The translations under genes were made by a program, and so were the position numbers. From the NCBI GenBank assembly GCA_016125225.1, contig WGME01000006.1, positions 1 to 64,000 of the forward strand: a DNA stretch of 64,000 nucleotides. Direction: 5' to 3'. Shown one piece after another: positions 41,415-47,964 of the stretch. The notes under the pieces were generated by a model that saw nothing but the letters and a program-made list of their open reading frames with translations, was not told where the DNA came from and did not search any database. Position 1 is the stretch's first letter; every line of letters begins with the position of its first letter. Source of the stretch: a bacterium (GTDB lineage: Bacteria > Planctomycetota > Planctomycetia > Planctomycetales > Planctomycetaceae).

Positions 41415-43898
41415 ATGATGCAGCACCTTGTCCGGCACGTGGGCTTGGTCGCCGTGTTCGCAGTCGCTGTCAGTTCCACTGCGGTGGCTGCCAGTATCGA
41501 AGCCCAGACCGCGACCGTCTGGCAACGGGTGAGTTCTGATGGGGAAGCCTATCAGGCCATCATTTTGAAGCCCCGGCAACTGTCCGATGCTGTCACGCCG
41601 CGCATTCATGCCGTCGTGGTTGACACCTCGGCCAGCCAGGTCGGTGAGCACCGTCGTCATGCCTTGGCGGTGGTGACCGAATTGGTGTCTCAACTGCCGG
41701 AAGATCACCTGGTGCGGATCTATGCTCTCGATGTGGAGACGCTGGATCTTTCCGGTGATTTCGCGTCGCCGCGTTCGGCGGAAACCTCAACGGCCTTGCA
41801 AGGTCTCAAGCGCCGGGCTCCGCTGGGTGCTTCTCACCTGCTGAGCGGCTTGACCCATGTTCTGAAAGATCTGCCCGCCAATGTGCCGGCTTCAGTCGTC
41901 TATCTCGGTGATGGCCAATCGACCGCAGAAACTCTGACTGCCGAAGCCGTGGCAAAGTTTGTCGGTCAGGCCCGGAATGCCCGAGTCTCGATTTCCAGCT
42001 ATGGCGTTGGACCGCAGCGAAATCTGCAGTTGCTGGGCACCTTGGCCACCCATACCGGCGGCAATGTGCTGTGCGATTCCTACAACGATGTTGAGACCTA
42101 TGTTTCGACTCAGGGCCACAAACTGGTAGCCGCGTTGACGGGAGCGATCAGCTATCCTTCGGCCTTGCACGTTTCCCCGGAGTCGGTGGCCTTGTTGCCG
42201 GGAACTCCGTTGCCTCTGCGGCTCGACCGTGAAACCGTTTATCTCTCGCATGGCACACTTCCGGCCGATGTCAGTCTGTCGGTCACGATGAACGATGGTC
42301 ATGGCATGACCTGGAAACTTGCCGACCCGGTGGAAGTCTCGGGAACCGCCTTCCTGCCAGCCTATGTTCAACGGGCCGAAGCCGATGCTGGTTTGAACAA
42401 CGGGATGGCCGGATTGAACTTTGCCGCCTGGGCTCAAGACGATTTCGTCGCCGTCCTTGGCCACATGATTGATGAAGGCCGCAACGCCCTGGCTCATCGT
42501 CAACCGCAACAGGCCGCTCAAATTGCTGAGCAAGTGCGACAACTCGACCAGGGTTTGGTTGAAGCCCGGCAGTTGGCTGTCGCCGCGGAACAATTGCAAA
42601 CCCGCATGGTCAGCCTGCAATCCGAACCGGAACCACCCGCTCCCGAAATCACTGACGACACTCCAGCAAATCCGAACCTGCTGTCTGACTACGAACAGCA
42701 ATCCATCGTCCGCTCTCAGAAGCTGCAGCTTACGGTCAGCAAGACCATTGAAGCTGTGCGTGCTTCAGACGAACCCGAATTGTCGATTGACGAATTGAAG
42801 CGCGTGCTGACATCGGTGCGTGCCGCGATCGACGTGAATCCCGAAGACCGGGCTCGCATGATCAAGCAACTCGAAGGCGAGTTGCTGGCGACTACGACCA
42901 GCCTCGAACAACTGCGCCAAAAGCGTGACCGCATGCAACAAAGCCTGGCTCAGCAGGAAGCACAAAAGCGTTTGGCCGAGCAGATGCTGCTGGATGAAGA
43001 ACGCCTCGAAAACCTGATCGACCGGGTACGAGCCCTGATGGAAGAAGGCCGTCACGGTGATGATGCCGCGTATGGCGAAGCTCAAGCCGTGGCGGATGTC
43101 GCTGTTGACTTGCGGCCCGGCGATGGAACGGCCACGGCAGCCCGCTTCGATTCGGAGGCGGCTGAACAACTCCTGCGGGCTTTCCGATTGCGTGCACGTC
43201 GTGCCGACCAGTTCCTGGAAGTTTTGCATCAGGTGGAACTCTCACACATTCCGTTCCCGGATGAACCCCCGATCCGGTTCCCGCCTGCCGCAGTGTGGAA
43301 TGCGTTGTCGCAACGCCGTAAGGCCCGCTACGCTTCAGTCGATCTGAAGAAAAACAGCCCGCAAGAACAACGCATCAGTTCCGAATTGAATTCGCGAACC
43401 GATCTGGCCTTTAACGATGTGGCCCTGAGCGAAGCCATTGACTTCCTGAAGGACTATCACCAGATCCCGATCATCATTGATACCACGGCCCTCGAAGACG
43501 ACGGCATCGATTCCAGCGAACCTGTCTCGATCGAGTTGTCGGGCATCAGCCTGCGAAGTGCCTTGCGGCTGCTCCTCGAACCCAAAGGTTTGACTTACGT
43601 AATCGAAGACGAAGTGATGAAAATCACGACCGAAACCAAGGCCAATGAAACCTTGTCGACACGAGTCTATCCAGTGGCCGACCTGGTGATTCCGATCACC
43701 ACAGCCAGTGGTGGTGGTGCTGGTGGTGGGCAGGGCATCTTCGGTAACCCGTTCGGCCAAGGCGGCGGCGGTGGCGGCGGCTTCGGCGGTGGTGGTGGCG
43801 GCCAAGGTGGTGGCGGCGGCGGCTTCGGCGGCGGCTTCCCGAGCGTGGCCCCGGAAGAAGTGCCGAACCACATCGGCCTCCCCTCAAAAAAAAACTGA
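41415..43898 (+). CDS. VWA-domain protein with coiled coil, STN-like domain and Gly-rich tail
   Basis: An 827-residue exported protein. A signal peptide ends near TAVAA. A von Willebrand A domain follows (HAVVVDTSASQVGEHRR with MIDAS DTSAS; VVYLGDGQST). Next comes a long coiled-coil region (about 350-560), then an STN/secretin-N-like fold (NDVALSEAIDFLKDYHQIPIIID, LSGISLRSALRLLLEPKGLTYV) at about 650-740, and a Gly-rich stretch (about 765-810). The frame closes at TGA 43896-43898 directly after an A9 tract. ATG 41415 has GGGAG nine bases upstream. The next frame (+1) is open for 463 codons from this point and carries coding-like sequence, so the stop may be bypassed or may be an assembly or mutational break. 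Confidence 0.85.
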   Translation: MMQHLVRHVGLVAVFAVAVSSTAVAASIEAQTATVWQRVSSDGEAYQAIILKPRQLSDAVTPRIHAVVVDTSASQVGEHRRHALAVVTELVSQLPEDHLVRIYALDVETLDLSGDFASPRSAETSTALQGLKRRAPLGASHLLSGLTHVLKDLPANVPASVVYLGDGQSTAETLTAEAVAKFVGQARNARVSISSYGVGPQRNLQLLGTLATHTGGNVLCDSYNDVETYVSTQGHKLVAALTGAISYPSALHVSPESVALLPGTPLPLRLDRETVYLSHGTLPADVSLSVTMNDGHGMTWKLADPVEVSGTAFLPAYVQRAEADAGLNNGMAGLNFAAWAQDDFVAVLGHMIDEGRNALAHRQPQQAAQIAEQVRQLDQGLVEARQLAVAAEQLQTRMVSLQSEPEPPAPEITDDTPANPNLLSDYEQQSIVRSQKLQLTVSKTIEAVRASDEPELSIDELKRVLTSVRAAIDVNPEDRARMIKQLEGELLATTTSLEQLRQKRDRMQQSLAQQEAQKRLAEQMLLDEERLENLIDRVRALMEEGRHGDDAAYGEAQAVADVAVDLRPGDGTATAARFDSEAAEQLLRAFRLRARRADQFLEVLHQVELSHIPFPDEPPIRFPPAAVWNALSQRRKARYASVDLKKNSPQEQRISSELNSRTDLAFNDVALSEAIDFLKDYHQIPIIIDTTALEDDGIDSSEPVSIELSGISLRSALRLLLEPKGLTYVIEDEVMKITTETKANETLSTRVYPVADLVIPITTASGGGAGGGQGIFGNPFGQGGGGGGGFGGGGGGQGGGGGGFGGGFPSVAPEEVPNHIGLPSKKN
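43710..43842 (+). repeat. Glycine-codon-rich low-complexity tract
   Basis: A 133-base stretch of GGT/GGC codons interrupted by Gln, Phe and Asn codons. It encodes the Gly-rich linker of the VWA protein between the STN-like domain and the A9 frame break. It is likely to be length-variable. Confidence 0.75.
43886..43894 (+). other. A9 homopolymer at reading-frame junction
   Basis: Nine consecutive A residues end the VWA frame (TCA AAA AAA AAC TGA). Removing one A joins the VWA frame to the downstream frame, giving one open frame to 45276 (about 1286 residues). A tract of nine As is long enough for transcriptional slippage, but also a classic sequencing or mutational error point. Confidence 0.6.
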
Positions 43899-43983
43899 AC
43901 TGACGCTGCCGAGCGATCGCATCGCTCACACGTCTCGCATTCACTCCACAAAACTTCAGATTCCCGCCAGGGAGCCTGAAGTT

Positions 43984-45276
43984 TTGTTGGTTTTAGCCCA
44001 GGCGGAAGCGAATCTGGCAGCCACCCGCTCAACAGTTTCCGATCCAGCCGAGCGCTGGGAGAAGTACTTCGAGTCGAACCAAGTCAGCCCGGCAACGATT
44101 CGGCAACTGGTGAATGACCTGAGTGCCGAGAAAAAAGCGGACGAGGTCATTGCACTGCTGGAGCAAGCGATCATCCGTGGGCAGGGGCAGCCTTGGATGT
44201 ACGAAGTGCTGGCACTCTCAATGGAAATTGCCGGCCGCCCCCGTCCAGAGATCGAACGTGTTTTGCTTTCATCACAGGATCTCACGCCTCCCGACGCCGA
44301 ATCGCTGTTGTTTGTCGCGGCGTATCTGGCGCGCTTCGAGCGATTTTCTCAGGCGATTGAATGCTGTCGCATGGCCATCGAACGCGATAACACCCATCCG
44401 GAACCATATGCCACAGCCTTAAGATATGCTCGCCGGATTCAAGATGACCCGGCTGTGGCTTGGGCAGCGATGGGAGTTTTACGAACGGCATGGCTCTCGC
44501 GAGATGATGCATTGCGGCACGAGGCCCTTCTGGCCATTGCCGATGTTCGAGAGCGATGGCGGAAAGCCGGACAGCTATGGAACCTCGCTGCGTTGGATAT
44601 GAGCCTGCCAGAGGTCCAGCGGATCGATCTTCAATTGCGATTGGAATGGTCTGGCGCTGGCGATCTTGATCTGGAAATCGAGGAGCCATCGGGAACTCTG
44701 TGCTCACGAACCAACCGTTATACACCTGGCGGCGGCATCTATCGGCACGATGGCTCTGGACCACAGGCGGCCCGCTGCTATGACGAATATCTTTGCCCCA
44801 TGGCATGGGCGGGCGAATATCGCATACGTGTGATACACAGTTGGGGCACCATTGTTGGTAAACGGGCCACACTAACCGTGACACGCGATGCGGGAACGCA
44901 GCAAGCCGTGAGTGATGTGATTCCGCTGTCCATCTCTGCCGAAGCGACGGAAGTGCGCGTGACATTGCCCCTCGGACGCAGAGACAAAGTGGCCGCACTC
45001 CCGAAACCTACCGCACCCCAAGCCGGTCGTCCCGTTCGCCGTCCGACAATTCTCCAACAGTTGCAAGTCGGTGGAACGCGCCCGTTCAATGTCGGATCGA
45101 CTCCGGCTATAGGACCTGGCGCCGTGGGGTATCAACCCATCATTCAATTCATCAACGAAGGCGTGACCATGTCCACGCAGGCGGTGATTTCGGGTGATCG
45201 GCGGTATGTCCGCATCACCACATCGCCGGTGTTCAGCAACATTACCGACGTTTTCACGTTCAGCTTCATTCAATGA
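43984..45276 (+). CDS. TPR / YfaP-like (DUF2135) domain protein, possible C-terminal half of the VWA protein
   Basis: A 430-residue frame. The first 180 residues are helical repeats (DEVIALLEQAIIRGQGQPWMYEVLALSMEIA, SQAIECCRMAIERD). The rest is a beta-rich YfaP/DUF2135-like domain (LRLEWSGAGDLDLEIEEPSG, GGGIYRHDG, WAGEYRIRVIHSWGTIVG). There is no ATG. I list TTG 43984 because AGGGAG lies nine bases before it, but the same frame stays open back to the A9 tract at 43885 and has no signal peptide of its own. As a separate product it would lack an export signal, so fusion to the VWA gene through the A9 site is the simpler reading. It ends 28 bases before the convergent tsaD stop. Confidence 0.65.
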   Translation: MLVLAQAEANLAATRSTVSDPAERWEKYFESNQVSPATIRQLVNDLSAEKKADEVIALLEQAIIRGQGQPWMYEVLALSMEIAGRPRPEIERVLLSSQDLTPPDAESLLFVAAYLARFERFSQAIECCRMAIERDNTHPEPYATALRYARRIQDDPAVAWAAMGVLRTAWLSRDDALRHEALLAIADVRERWRKAGQLWNLAALDMSLPEVQRIDLQLRLEWSGAGDLDLEIEEPSGTLCSRTNRYTPGGGIYRHDGSGPQAARCYDEYLCPMAWAGEYRIRVIHSWGTIVGKRATLTVTRDAGTQQAVSDVIPLSISAEATEVRVTLPLGRRDKVAALPKPTAPQAGRPVRRPTILQQLQVGGTRPFNVGSTPAIGPGAVGYQPIIQFINEGVTMSTQAVISGDRRYVRITTSPVFSNITDVFTFSFIQ

Positions 45277-45304: not shown

Positions 45305-46336
45305 TTATGATCGCATCAATCCCGGGATGACGTCGGTATCAAAGGCGGCCAGCAATCCGCGTTCGTAGTATTCCCAGCCTAAGGCCATCATCGCGGCGTT
45401 GTCGGTGCAGAATTCTCGCGGAGCAAGCACGAGTCGTACACCAAGTCGTGAAACCATTTCCTCTAACGCACTGCGGAATGCCCCATTGGCTGCGACTCCG
45501 CCACCAACGCACAGTGTTCGGCGTCCCGTCTGTTTGAGGGCCTGCTCGCATTTGCCGATCAGCACATCGATGGCTGCCGCTTGAAAGCTTGCCGCCAGGT
45601 CCTGAATTCGAGATGTCGTCAGTTCCGGCACCGGAGTCCGCGATCCCGGCGTGCCACGGGCCGCGTACAGCACCGCCGTTTTCAAACCACTGAAGCTGAA
45701 TCGCAAGGCCGGTTCGTGCAGGAATGTGCGGGCGAACGAAAACGCCGCCGAGTTGCCATCACGAGCCAATCGTTCGATCTGCGGACCACCGGGGTATTCG
45801 AGTCCCAGAATCTGGGCGACTTTATCGAAGGCTTCACCGGCCGCGTCATCAATGGTGCAGCCCAGCAAGTCCATTTCCACAGCCGAACGGCAGTCGAACA
45901 GGTGGGTATGGCCGCCGCTGACCACAAAGCCGATCGCAGGGAAAATGTCTGCACCAGCCGCCATGCGGCACGCATACAAATGCGCGGCGACATGATTGAC
46001 CGTGACCAACGGCACATCGAGCGCCAACGAAAGCGACTTCGCCGCCGTAAGGCCGACCAGCAGCGAGCCCACCAGACCCGGGTGCGTCGCGACGGCGACC
46101 ACACCTACACCAGTCAGAGATATGCCGGCCTGACGAACGGCTTCGTCAATCACAGGCAAAATGCGTTCGAGATGCGCCCGTGAGGCGATCTCAGGAACCA
46201 CACCGCCAAACCGTTCGTGCAACTCGAACTGTGTCGCGACGATGTTGGACAGCACATGTCGATCACGTCGAACAATAGCCGCAGACGTCTCGTCACACGA
46301 TGTCTCAATCGACAGCAGATATTCCGCGTCACCCAT
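45305..46336 (-). CDS. tsaD: tRNA N6-adenosine threonylcarbamoyltransferase
   Basis: A 343-residue TsaD (Kae1/YgjD), which transfers the threonylcarbamoyl group to A37 of ANN-reading tRNAs. Motifs are LLSIETSCDETSAAIV, VPEIASRAHLERILP, TVNHVAAHLYACRM (the HxxxH metal site), GFVVSGGHTHLF and GGGVAANGAFRSAL, and a final Asp in CTDNAAMMALG. Its ATG shares one base with the ctp stop (TGATG), so the two are coupled. Confidence 0.95.
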   Translation of the reverse strand: MGDAEYLLSIETSCDETSAAIVRRDRHVLSNIVATQFELHERFGGVVPEIASRAHLERILPVIDEAVRQAGISLTGVGVVAVATHPGLVGSLLVGLTAAKSLSLALDVPLVTVNHVAAHLYACRMAAGADIFPAIGFVVSGGHTHLFDCRSAVEMDLLGCTIDDAAGEAFDKVAQILGLEYPGGPQIERLARDGNSAAFSFARTFLHEPALRFSFSGLKTAVLYAARGTPGSRTPVPELTTSRIQDLAASFQAAAIDVLIGKCEQALKQTGRRTLCVGGGVAANGAFRSALEEMVSRLGVRLVLAPREFCTDNAAMMALGWEYYERGLLAAFDTDVIPGLMRS

Positions 46337-47796
46337 CAGGCGGCTTGTGCCCGCAAGAACGTCAACAAGGTGCGAATCGGCCAGACAATCGCCGCGGCCC
46401 CAGATGTTGAAGCGGCGGCTGATTTCTTTTCTTCGGCCTTCTCTTCCACGGGTTTCTTTTCGTCGGCCTTGGCTTCACCTTTTGGCTTGGCCATTTCGGC
46501 TTTCAGAAATTCGAGGGCCTTTTCCATCTGCGAGTCTTTGTAGTCGGTTTTCGGCGGGCCATCTTTCTGCCCCAACACATCACGCTCGGCTCGATAATCG
46601 CGATAGTGCTGCATGTCTTCGAAGGTCCACTTCACCTCATAACCTGAATCGGGCGAGACGCCCCATTCGTCGGTTTCCTTCGATTTGGGGAAGCGATGAA
46701 TGTTCTTACCGCTGGGGCGATGGTAGCTAGCGGTGGTCAACTTCAGAGCCGACTTGCCCCCTTCCATCTCGATCACATTCTGCACGCTCCCTTTGCCCCA
46801 GCTCCGTTCACCAACCACGATGGCCCGGTGATGATCCTGCAAGCAGGCGCTGACAATTTCACTCGCGGAAGCGCTATAGCGATTGATGAGCACGGCCATC
46901 GGGAAGCCGGTGAAGGTGCCCGGTTGTTTGGCCTTGATCACCTGTTCTTCGGTGTTACGGCCCTTGGTGCTGACGATCACGCCGTCATCGACGAACATAT
47001 CTGAAATCGCCGCGGCGGCCTGCAGTAAGCCGCCCGGGTTGTACCGGAGATCGAGCACCAACGCCTGCATGCCCTCTTTCTTCAGTTCATTCAGGGCATG
47101 TTCCATTTCGTCGGCACTGTTGCGGCTGAAATGCGTCAAACGGATGTAGCCAATCTTCTGATCGCCCGGCAGCATATATTCCCAGGTGCCATCTTCCTTG
47201 TAACGATCGCCGAGCACCGTGGGAGTTTTAATGATCGCCCGTGTGACATCGACCGTTTCCGGTTTCTCGGCACCGGCATGCAGAATGGTCAGCTTGACCG
47301 GGTCGCCGGGTTTGCCACGCATCATTTTGACGGCGGAGTCCATTTCGGCCCCTTCTTCGAATTCGGCGGTCGGCTTACCATCGATTTCGACGATCTTGTC
47401 GCCCGCGCGAATGCCCGCCGTGTAAGCCGGGGTGCCGGGCAGGGGGGTCATCACCATCAGTTCGCGGGTTTTCGGGTCGAGAGTCACCTGAATCCCGATG
47501 CCACCGAATTCCTGCTCGACGACGGTGTTGAATTCGTTCAGATCTTGCGGATCGATGTACGACGAATAGGGATCGAGTTTAGTGAGCATGCCCCGCAACG
47601 CCGCTTCCACCAATTCCCGGCGAGAGACCTCTTTGACATAGTTCCGATCGATCTGTTCGAAGGTATCAACGAACAGGTTCATCAGTTCGTAATACTCGTC
47701 GTCCTTGTCTTGCTCGGCAGCGGACAACGGCAGCGATAACGCAGTGATCGCCAGGAAACAGAATAGACGCGGCAGAATCCCTCGCCCCATGTGCAT
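46336..47796 (-). CDS. Carboxy-terminal processing protease (peptidase S41)
   Basis: A 486-residue exported protease with a signal peptide ending near LSAAEQ. A PDZ domain (FGGIGIQVTLDPK...GDKIVEIDGKP) is followed by the S41 catalytic domain with LRYNPGGLL, the Ser in RYSASASEIVSA and the Lys in SWGKGSVQNV. The C-terminal 50 residues are Lys/Glu/Ala-rich (KADEKKPVEEKAEEKK) and end in a hydrophobic stretch (IVWPIRTLLTFL). It trims C-termini of envelope proteins. I used ATG 47796 (GGGGG upstream); a second ATG lies six bases on. Confidence 0.93.
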   Translation of the reverse strand: MHMGRGILPRLFCFLAITALSLPLSAAEQDKDDEYYELMNLFVDTFEQIDRNYVKEVSRRELVEAALRGMLTKLDPYSSYIDPQDLNEFNTVVEQEFGGIGIQVTLDPKTRELMVMTPLPGTPAYTAGIRAGDKIVEIDGKPTAEFEEGAEMDSAVKMMRGKPGDPVKLTILHAGAEKPETVDVTRAIIKTPTVLGDRYKEDGTWEYMLPGDQKIGYIRLTHFSRNSADEMEHALNELKKEGMQALVLDLRYNPGGLLQAAAAISDMFVDDGVIVSTKGRNTEEQVIKAKQPGTFTGFPMAVLINRYSASASEIVSACLQDHHRAIVVGERSWGKGSVQNVIEMEGGKSALKLTTASYHRPSGKNIHRFPKSKETDEWGVSPDSGYEVKWTFEDMQHYRDYRAERDVLGQKDGPPKTDYKDSQMEKALEFLKAEMAKPKGEAKADEKKPVEEKAEEKKSAAASTSGAAAIVWPIRTLLTFLRAQAA

Positions 47797-47964
47797 ATCA
47801 GCCCCCGGATAAGTGGAACCCCGGTGAATCATCCCTACATAGATGACCGCAGAAACCCATCGATGAAGATTTCTGCATCATCATGACTCTAGGCATTTTA
47901 CGGACTTACGACAAGGGGCGTTGGTGAATTCGTCAGCTTTCACGGATGTCTCGCCCCCGCATCA

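Follow-up and report, generated by a model that had tools for sequence, protein, structure and literature searches.

In Escherichia coli, dnaX is subject to −1 ribosomal frameshifting at the sequence A_AAA_AAG, and a Shine-Dalgarno stimulator upstream is a feature of this frameshifting. In Thermus thermophilus, dnaX has a run of nine As (A9) on which transcriptional slippage occurs, longer and shorter runs are made, and the products are tau and gamma (PMC1088944). In orfA/orfB of insertion sequence (IS) elements and in Shigella spa13/mxiE, slippage on an A/T run joins two frames and thereby extends the product (PMC5009743, PMC3711429). Here, we consider an A9 run in the DNA of a bacterium of the Planctomycetaceae, within a stretch of 64,000 nucleotides (positions 1 to 64,000 of contig WGME01000006.1, assembly GCA_016125225.1), which is called the window throughout. 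The run is situated at the junction of two open reading frames (ORFs): the first encodes a von Willebrand A (VWA) protein with an STN-like stretch, and the second, beyond a linker, encodes TPR-like helical repeats and a predicted β-sandwich. What was observed directly is the run itself, the reading frames and how far both are conserved, the coding character of the linker, and the fused state of the protein in other families; the occurrence of the shift at transcription, the ratio of the products and their function are what we infer from them. We hold it very probable that the run is a site of programmed transcriptional slippage, by which one gene would give a VWA-STN protein and also a longer fusion protein.

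In the mechanism proposed, RNA polymerase would slip on the A9 run, giving mRNAs of varying A number. The unslipped mRNA would be translated into an exported VWA-STN protein of 827 amino acids, ending just past the run; an mRNA slipped into the right frame would be read onward through the linker, the TPR helices and the β-sandwich, giving an exported fusion protein of about 1286 amino acids. For most relatives, addition of a single A (−1 frame) would suffice, and in the window species one A would be lost or two added (+1 frame). Since a polymerase slipping on A9 yields both longer and shorter runs, as in Thermus dnaX, slippage can serve both frame classes. The two products are likely to be alternative forms of a scaffold protein of the envelope or surface, with additional protein-binding repeats in the longer form.

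Conservation of the A9 Run

A first search for relatives gave a match in 40 of 40 genomes (the window's own included), which was long in 38; in the remaining two (G018, G022) it was restricted to a C-terminal stretch that recurs in another long protein. In the window's family, the Planctomycetaceae (f1; in the contig search, Schlesneria, Gimesia, Thalassoglobus and Planctomicrobium), 169 of 170 genomes had a match, 13 of them weakly (E above 1e-22). The junction was read in a census of 142 f1 genomes, window included, which leaves aside these 13, the f1 genomes not fetched, four loci with short upstream sequence (L008, L123, L138, L142) and a second place in G140; for L146, L148, L154 and L056 the frames were assigned from the translations.

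The run is present at the junction in all 142: as A9 in 134, as A8 followed by G (A8G) in five (L045, L048, L146, L148, L153) and as A10 in three (L007, L099, L033). As to the second half, 134 loci have it in the −1 frame, six in the +1 frame and two in frame. The six +1 loci are the window, all three species of genus g4 (L116, L129, L019), L118 and L086, and in each of them the −1 frame ends within 5–7 codons. The same split with A9 is seen in 21 f1 genomes assembled as a single contig. The codon phase of the run varies (120/17/5 of the 142), and in 115 of the 120 loci of phase 0 there are at least nine As, compared with 15.7 predicted by how these loci use Lys codons; thus, the coding of Lys-Lys-Lys does not explain the run. 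The loci scanned amount to 658 kb; of the A9 runs in them, 121 were marked as junctions and 12 others proved to be the junctions of loci without a detected VWA match; there was no run of nine Ts. Programmed slippage was one of several readings offered by an earlier examination of the window's letters (the original prediction), and the conservation of the run supports it strongly.

A separate contig search gave 80 loci: 59 in the −1 frame, one in the +1 frame, one fused with A10 and nine fused without a run. Among the other 10, the frame of L240 (the counterpart of L056) was misassigned, and nine had a contig end or no VWA match. The split loci of this search largely repeat genomes of the census and were not counted again. 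Thalassoglobus neptunius is represented among the 80 by L268, with an A9 run.

In a second family of the same class (f2), A9 is present in 42 of 43 genomes read, a set that omits G392 (contig end) and G380 (no match), and in 40 of 40 loci with an assignable first frame the second half follows at −1. In the remaining genome, L357, the run is A10 and the two halves are in frame; its congener L365 has A9 with the same flanks. The two families combined (185 genomes) have A9 in 176, A8 in five and A10 in four.

Translation of the Linker

In the second frame, from the run to the domain, the 142 loci contain no stop in 8661 codons, compared with 274 in 8628 and 444 in 8641 for the other frames (in L004 and L113 the count was started at a later A8 rather than at their A9). 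An open frame was in part a condition for finding the run; thus, the pattern of substitutions matters more. In 24 independent close pairs, linker differences number 138/107/224 at codon positions 1/2/3, and the synonymous codon changes number 150 in the second frame versus 60 and 50 in the others. Among 140 linkers (the 142 loci minus the two in frame), 116 are without ATG and 25 without any of ATG, GTG and TTG. Since 25 of 140 linkers are without a start, an independent start cannot be the general route. On these counts, the downstream frame appears to be translated as a continuation of the first.

Fused Relatives and History of the Run

In 17 loci from other families of the Planctomycetia, the matches to the VWA part and to the TPR part share a single frame, and between these parts there is no A run of eight or more. 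Among the matches listed by a class-wide search (which hold no row of f2 or f3), 72 rows lie outside f1, and by hand count 65 of these are frames of 1199–1630 amino acids. Of the short rows outside f1, G324, G271, G190, G322 and G278 reach contig ends and G347 an N gap; G029 (L024/L172) is cut by the contig and is split without an A run of eight. In a tree of 47 sequences, f1 groups together (95/91), as does f2 (100/100), and the fused families lie between them under a midpoint root (L179 is labelled as fused, though its contig ends before the VWA part). This arrangement would mean either that the run was gained twice, or that one old run was lost at least twice.

The Locus in the Window

According to the original prediction, the VWA frame stops directly after the nine As, the +1 frame is open from there onward, and removal of one A joins the two into about 1286 residues; reading of the frames agrees on each point. 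The features are collected in Table 1. The +1 frame is open from stop to stop over 43708-45276. A TGA here closes the −1 frame used by most relatives; thus, the transcript of the window species must lose one A or gain two, i.e., fusion requires A8 or A11. From base composition, about 0.76 A runs of this kind are expected per Mb and strand, and the window's genome has 10 runs of at least nine As in 6.35 Mb on both strands, so that the run by itself is ordinary; its position at the junction is not.

The N-terminus of ORF 1, MMQHLVRHVGLVAVFAVAVSSTAVAAS, resembles a signal peptide by eye. The STN-like stretch is also below threshold against NCBIfam NF042912 (17.4 bits, cut-off 750).

Table 1. Features of the locus around the A9 run, with positions in the window.
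Feature	Position	Strand	Basis
ORF 1, VWA/STN protein, 827 amino acids, C-terminus ...SKKN	41415..43898	+	Pfam VWA_3, E 8.5e-13
Von Willebrand A domain, residues 67-218	41613..42068	+	Pfam PF13768, 49.1 bits against cut-off 27
STN-like stretch, residues 698-732, sub-threshold	43506..43610	+	PF07660, E 0.013, 15.7 bits against cut-off 28.4
A9 tract at the VWA-STN/TPR junction	43886..43894	+	Sequence reading
TGA closing the unslipped (0) frame	43896..43898	+	Sequence reading
TGA closing the −1 frame in the window species	43901..43903	+	−1 frame reads KKKLN*
Hairpin 1 core, 3′ of A9	43911..43927	+	RNA folding
Hairpin 2, strong, T-rich tail, terminator-like by eye	43946..43990	+	RNA folding
ORF 2 region: linker, TPR helices, β-sandwich, C-terminal strands	43895..45276	+	+1 frame, stop at 45274-45276
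TPR-like helical repeats, eleven helices, model residues 1-193	44041..44619	+	AlphaFold2; Foldseek; Pfam TPR_14 in homologues
Predicted β-sandwich, model residues 195-309 (YfaP/DUF2135 name unconfirmed)	44623..44967	+	AlphaFold2

The second half was predicted with AlphaFold2 from 29 aligned sequences (mean confidence score, pLDDT, 82.9) as eleven helices, followed by a β-sandwich and a tail of low confidence with two strands. Foldseek matched TPR proteins, the best with E 5.4e-5, at low TM-scores. Pfam gives the second half weak TPR matches alone: TPR_14 is found in 20 of 29 homologues (E<=1), and in the window's protein it scores 21.8 bits, below the cut-off of 23.5. Helical repeats of the TPR kind are thus supported by the predicted fold and, weakly, in sequence. 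The original prediction had named TPR and DUF2135-like (YfaP) coding, and the TPR part stood. The DUF2135 profile of Pfam had no match in the second half even at E<=10, none in seven of seven homologues at E<=0.1, and no place among the 25 families listed for the 29 homologues at E<=1; thus, the name YfaP was not confirmed.

The two hairpins downstream of the run have a fold z of −4.1. Hairpin 2 was not listed by a terminator scan, so that what points to a terminator is the fold and the T-rich tail; it is perhaps a terminator or attenuator. The idea that the hairpins are a dispersed repeat was rejected: apart from its own inverted arm, the best other match of the linker in the genome has E 0.29. 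Downstream of the gene, two neighbours are convergent with it on the (-) strand, TsaD (45305-46336) and an S41 PDZ protease (46336-47832).

A9 Runs in Other Genes

In 18 of 27 dnaX loci read from the Planctomycetia (16 with A9, two with A10), stops occur within 28 codons of the run in both other frames, i.e., a layout like that of Thermus (PMC1088944), which speaks for slippage as a precedent within the clade. This is so for 12 of 16 loci in f1, the window's own genome included, and the run is at about the same place (L167/L327 at G000:C26:35752, and L328-L353). A PfaA-like polyketide synthase splits at its run, where the frame shifts by −1, into a carrier-like part and a ketoreductase (KR) part; the run is A9, A9, A9 and A10 in four close matches among 28 rows, own included (L163/L183 at G000:C3:206053, L184, L185, and L186 with A10), and one of these matches belongs to a different family. 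At the remaining A9 places in G003 (four) and G030 (three), no clear further recoding gene was seen.

At another place in the window's genome (L164, G000:C5:51123), an ABC-ATPase ORF meets a GNAT-like acetyltransferase ORF at an A9, with a −1 shift; the neighbourhood is perhaps phage-like.

A broader idea can be put forward tentatively, with the odds somewhat against it. In the Planctomycetia, A9 may be a recurring, splice-like code read by the polymerase in several unrelated genes and retained from genus to genus and family to family, with a fixed ratio of short to extended product; the extended frame could then move between −1 and +1, since the polymerase would supply both; the hairpins in the window may let only translated, slipped mRNAs finish. 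That the genes using such a code would comprise the exported VWA protein, the PfaA-like polyketide synthase, dnaX and perhaps the phage-like ATPase/acetyltransferase gene is, taken jointly, just as speculative.

Proposed Slippage and Its Alternatives

A number of observations weigh against programmed transcriptional slippage. The first six linker codons differ by 19/5/12 at positions 1/2/3, without a peak at position 3 (in most loci, the 0 frame still runs through these six codons); the linker's G+C content at third codon positions is 0.50-0.63, not standing out as that of the domain does (0.655); and the tail of the 0 frame, examined for selection, has 22 substitutions, distributed 3/9/10 by position. 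Two f1 genomes are without a frame break, L033 (A10) and L049, which has lost the VWA half so that the TPR half stands alone, and two of the 185 genomes of both families are in frame through run length (L033 and L357, both A10). The window copy is +1 whereas two congeners are −1, all with A9; given this departure and the strong hairpins, read-through in the window species could be weak or lost. All five A8 loci are A8G and so retain the slippery heptamer A_AAA_AAG, and A_AAA_AAA is contained in every A9. Structure 3′ of the run exceeds that of shuffled sequence (z<-2) in 27 of 142 loci, the control stretches giving 9 of 142 and 10 of 139, and such structure could stimulate ribosomal shifting.

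The heptamers and the moderately enriched structure would be expected if the ribosome, rather than the polymerase, slipped, i.e., by programmed −1 ribosomal frameshifting on A_AAA_AAA or A_AAA_AAG as in E. coli dnaX, and so would the predominance of the −1 frame in both families. This explanation is nevertheless rather unlikely. The −1 direction is not universal, since six f1 loci need +1 and their −1 frames close almost at once; a ribosome could do with seven As, yet nine are retained; the run is not fixed in codon phase; and an upstream Shine-Dalgarno-like motif, sought as a stimulator, is found in 2 of 142 loci versus 13 in a control stretch.

A further suggestion of the original prediction was that the TPR part is a separate gene, starting at TTG 43984 (or 43987) behind AGGGAG. 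The window does have this TTG with AGGGAG about 9 nucleotides upstream, hairpin 2 resembles a terminator between two genes, and the window is outside its family's usual frame. However, TTG 43984 is situated in the 3′ arm of hairpin 2, no export signal is seen on the TPR part, and among the homologues a separate gene with a start of its own is not the rule, 25 of the 140 family linkers being without ATG, GTG and TTG. The one relative in which the TPR half stands alone (L049/L225, JAJXXL010000053), with its A9 in frame, carries an apparent signal peptide of its own (by eye). As a rule for the family, separate genes did not stand and are improbable; in the window species by itself, the TPR part may yet have its own start. 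Two readings compete here: slippage still supplies the +1 frame, as it would in genus g4, which we think probable; or else the species has begun to separate the two halves.

A phase-variable contingency locus, in which replication slippage would alter the run length and toggle the long form, is highly improbable, even though the homopolymer lies within a gene for an exported protein and two A10 genomes are in frame (L357 being one A apart from its congener in the same flanks): exactly nine As are found in 176 of 185 genomes, across species, with two in frame by length, where a contingency locus would give many lengths, about a third of them in frame. The idea that sequencing or assembly is at fault, or that the window's genome recently acquired a disabling indel, hardly deserves more credit, despite the error-prone nature of homopolymers and the +1 frame of the window against the −1 of its congeners; for the family it is refuted. 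The same split is found out of frame in 134 f1 genomes (−1), in five others (+1), in the 21 single-contig genomes and likewise in f2, and within the window's own assembly dnaX keeps its frame through an A9. Were the window's run misread by one base, a different slip would be required, but the conclusion would stand.

Comparison with Known Systems

The mechanism is already known in kind, and the site is new to the literature searched: no report of the A9 site of the VWA gene was found in PubMed Central full text, outside which lie many subscription papers and supplementary tables. The genome set of PMC3711429 holds two planctomycetes, and its main text is without mention of von Willebrand; in the portion of PMC5009743 covered, planctomycetes are unmentioned. 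If slippage is indeed what occurs, the A run of the VWA gene is a cellular recoding site conserved widely in two planctomycete families, and a gene finder that takes one frame at a time would split the gene in those genomes. This raises a testable question, i.e., whether the planctomycete RNA polymerase slips on A9 enough to set the ratio of the products, and a further one, whether these cells apply the same trick to dnaX and to the polyketide synthase.

The VWA gene resembles E. coli dnaX in having an A-rich slippery site and, in most relatives, a −1 direction, but differs in that it is without an upstream Shine-Dalgarno sequence, has +1 cases, and conserves nine As. The fused VWA-STN-TPR-sandwich protein of other Planctomycetia families has the same parts in an uninterrupted frame, without an A run of eight or more. 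The likeness to IS-element orfA/orfB and to Shigella spa13/mxiE, where slippage joins two frames and so extends the product (PMC5009743, PMC3711429), is that the VWA gene would be read in this way too; the differences are that the VWA gene is chromosomal, encodes an exported product and is kept in two families, i.e., it is not part of a mobile element or secretion system, and that it uses the other frame in 6 of 142 genomes. With Thermus dnaX, the VWA gene shares nine As on the coding strand, probably two products per gene, and nearby stops in the frames that give no product (PMC1088944, PMC5009743). The outcome of slipping is reversed: in Thermus the unslipped product is the long one and slipping truncates it, whereas in the VWA gene the unslipped product would be the short one and slipping would extend it.

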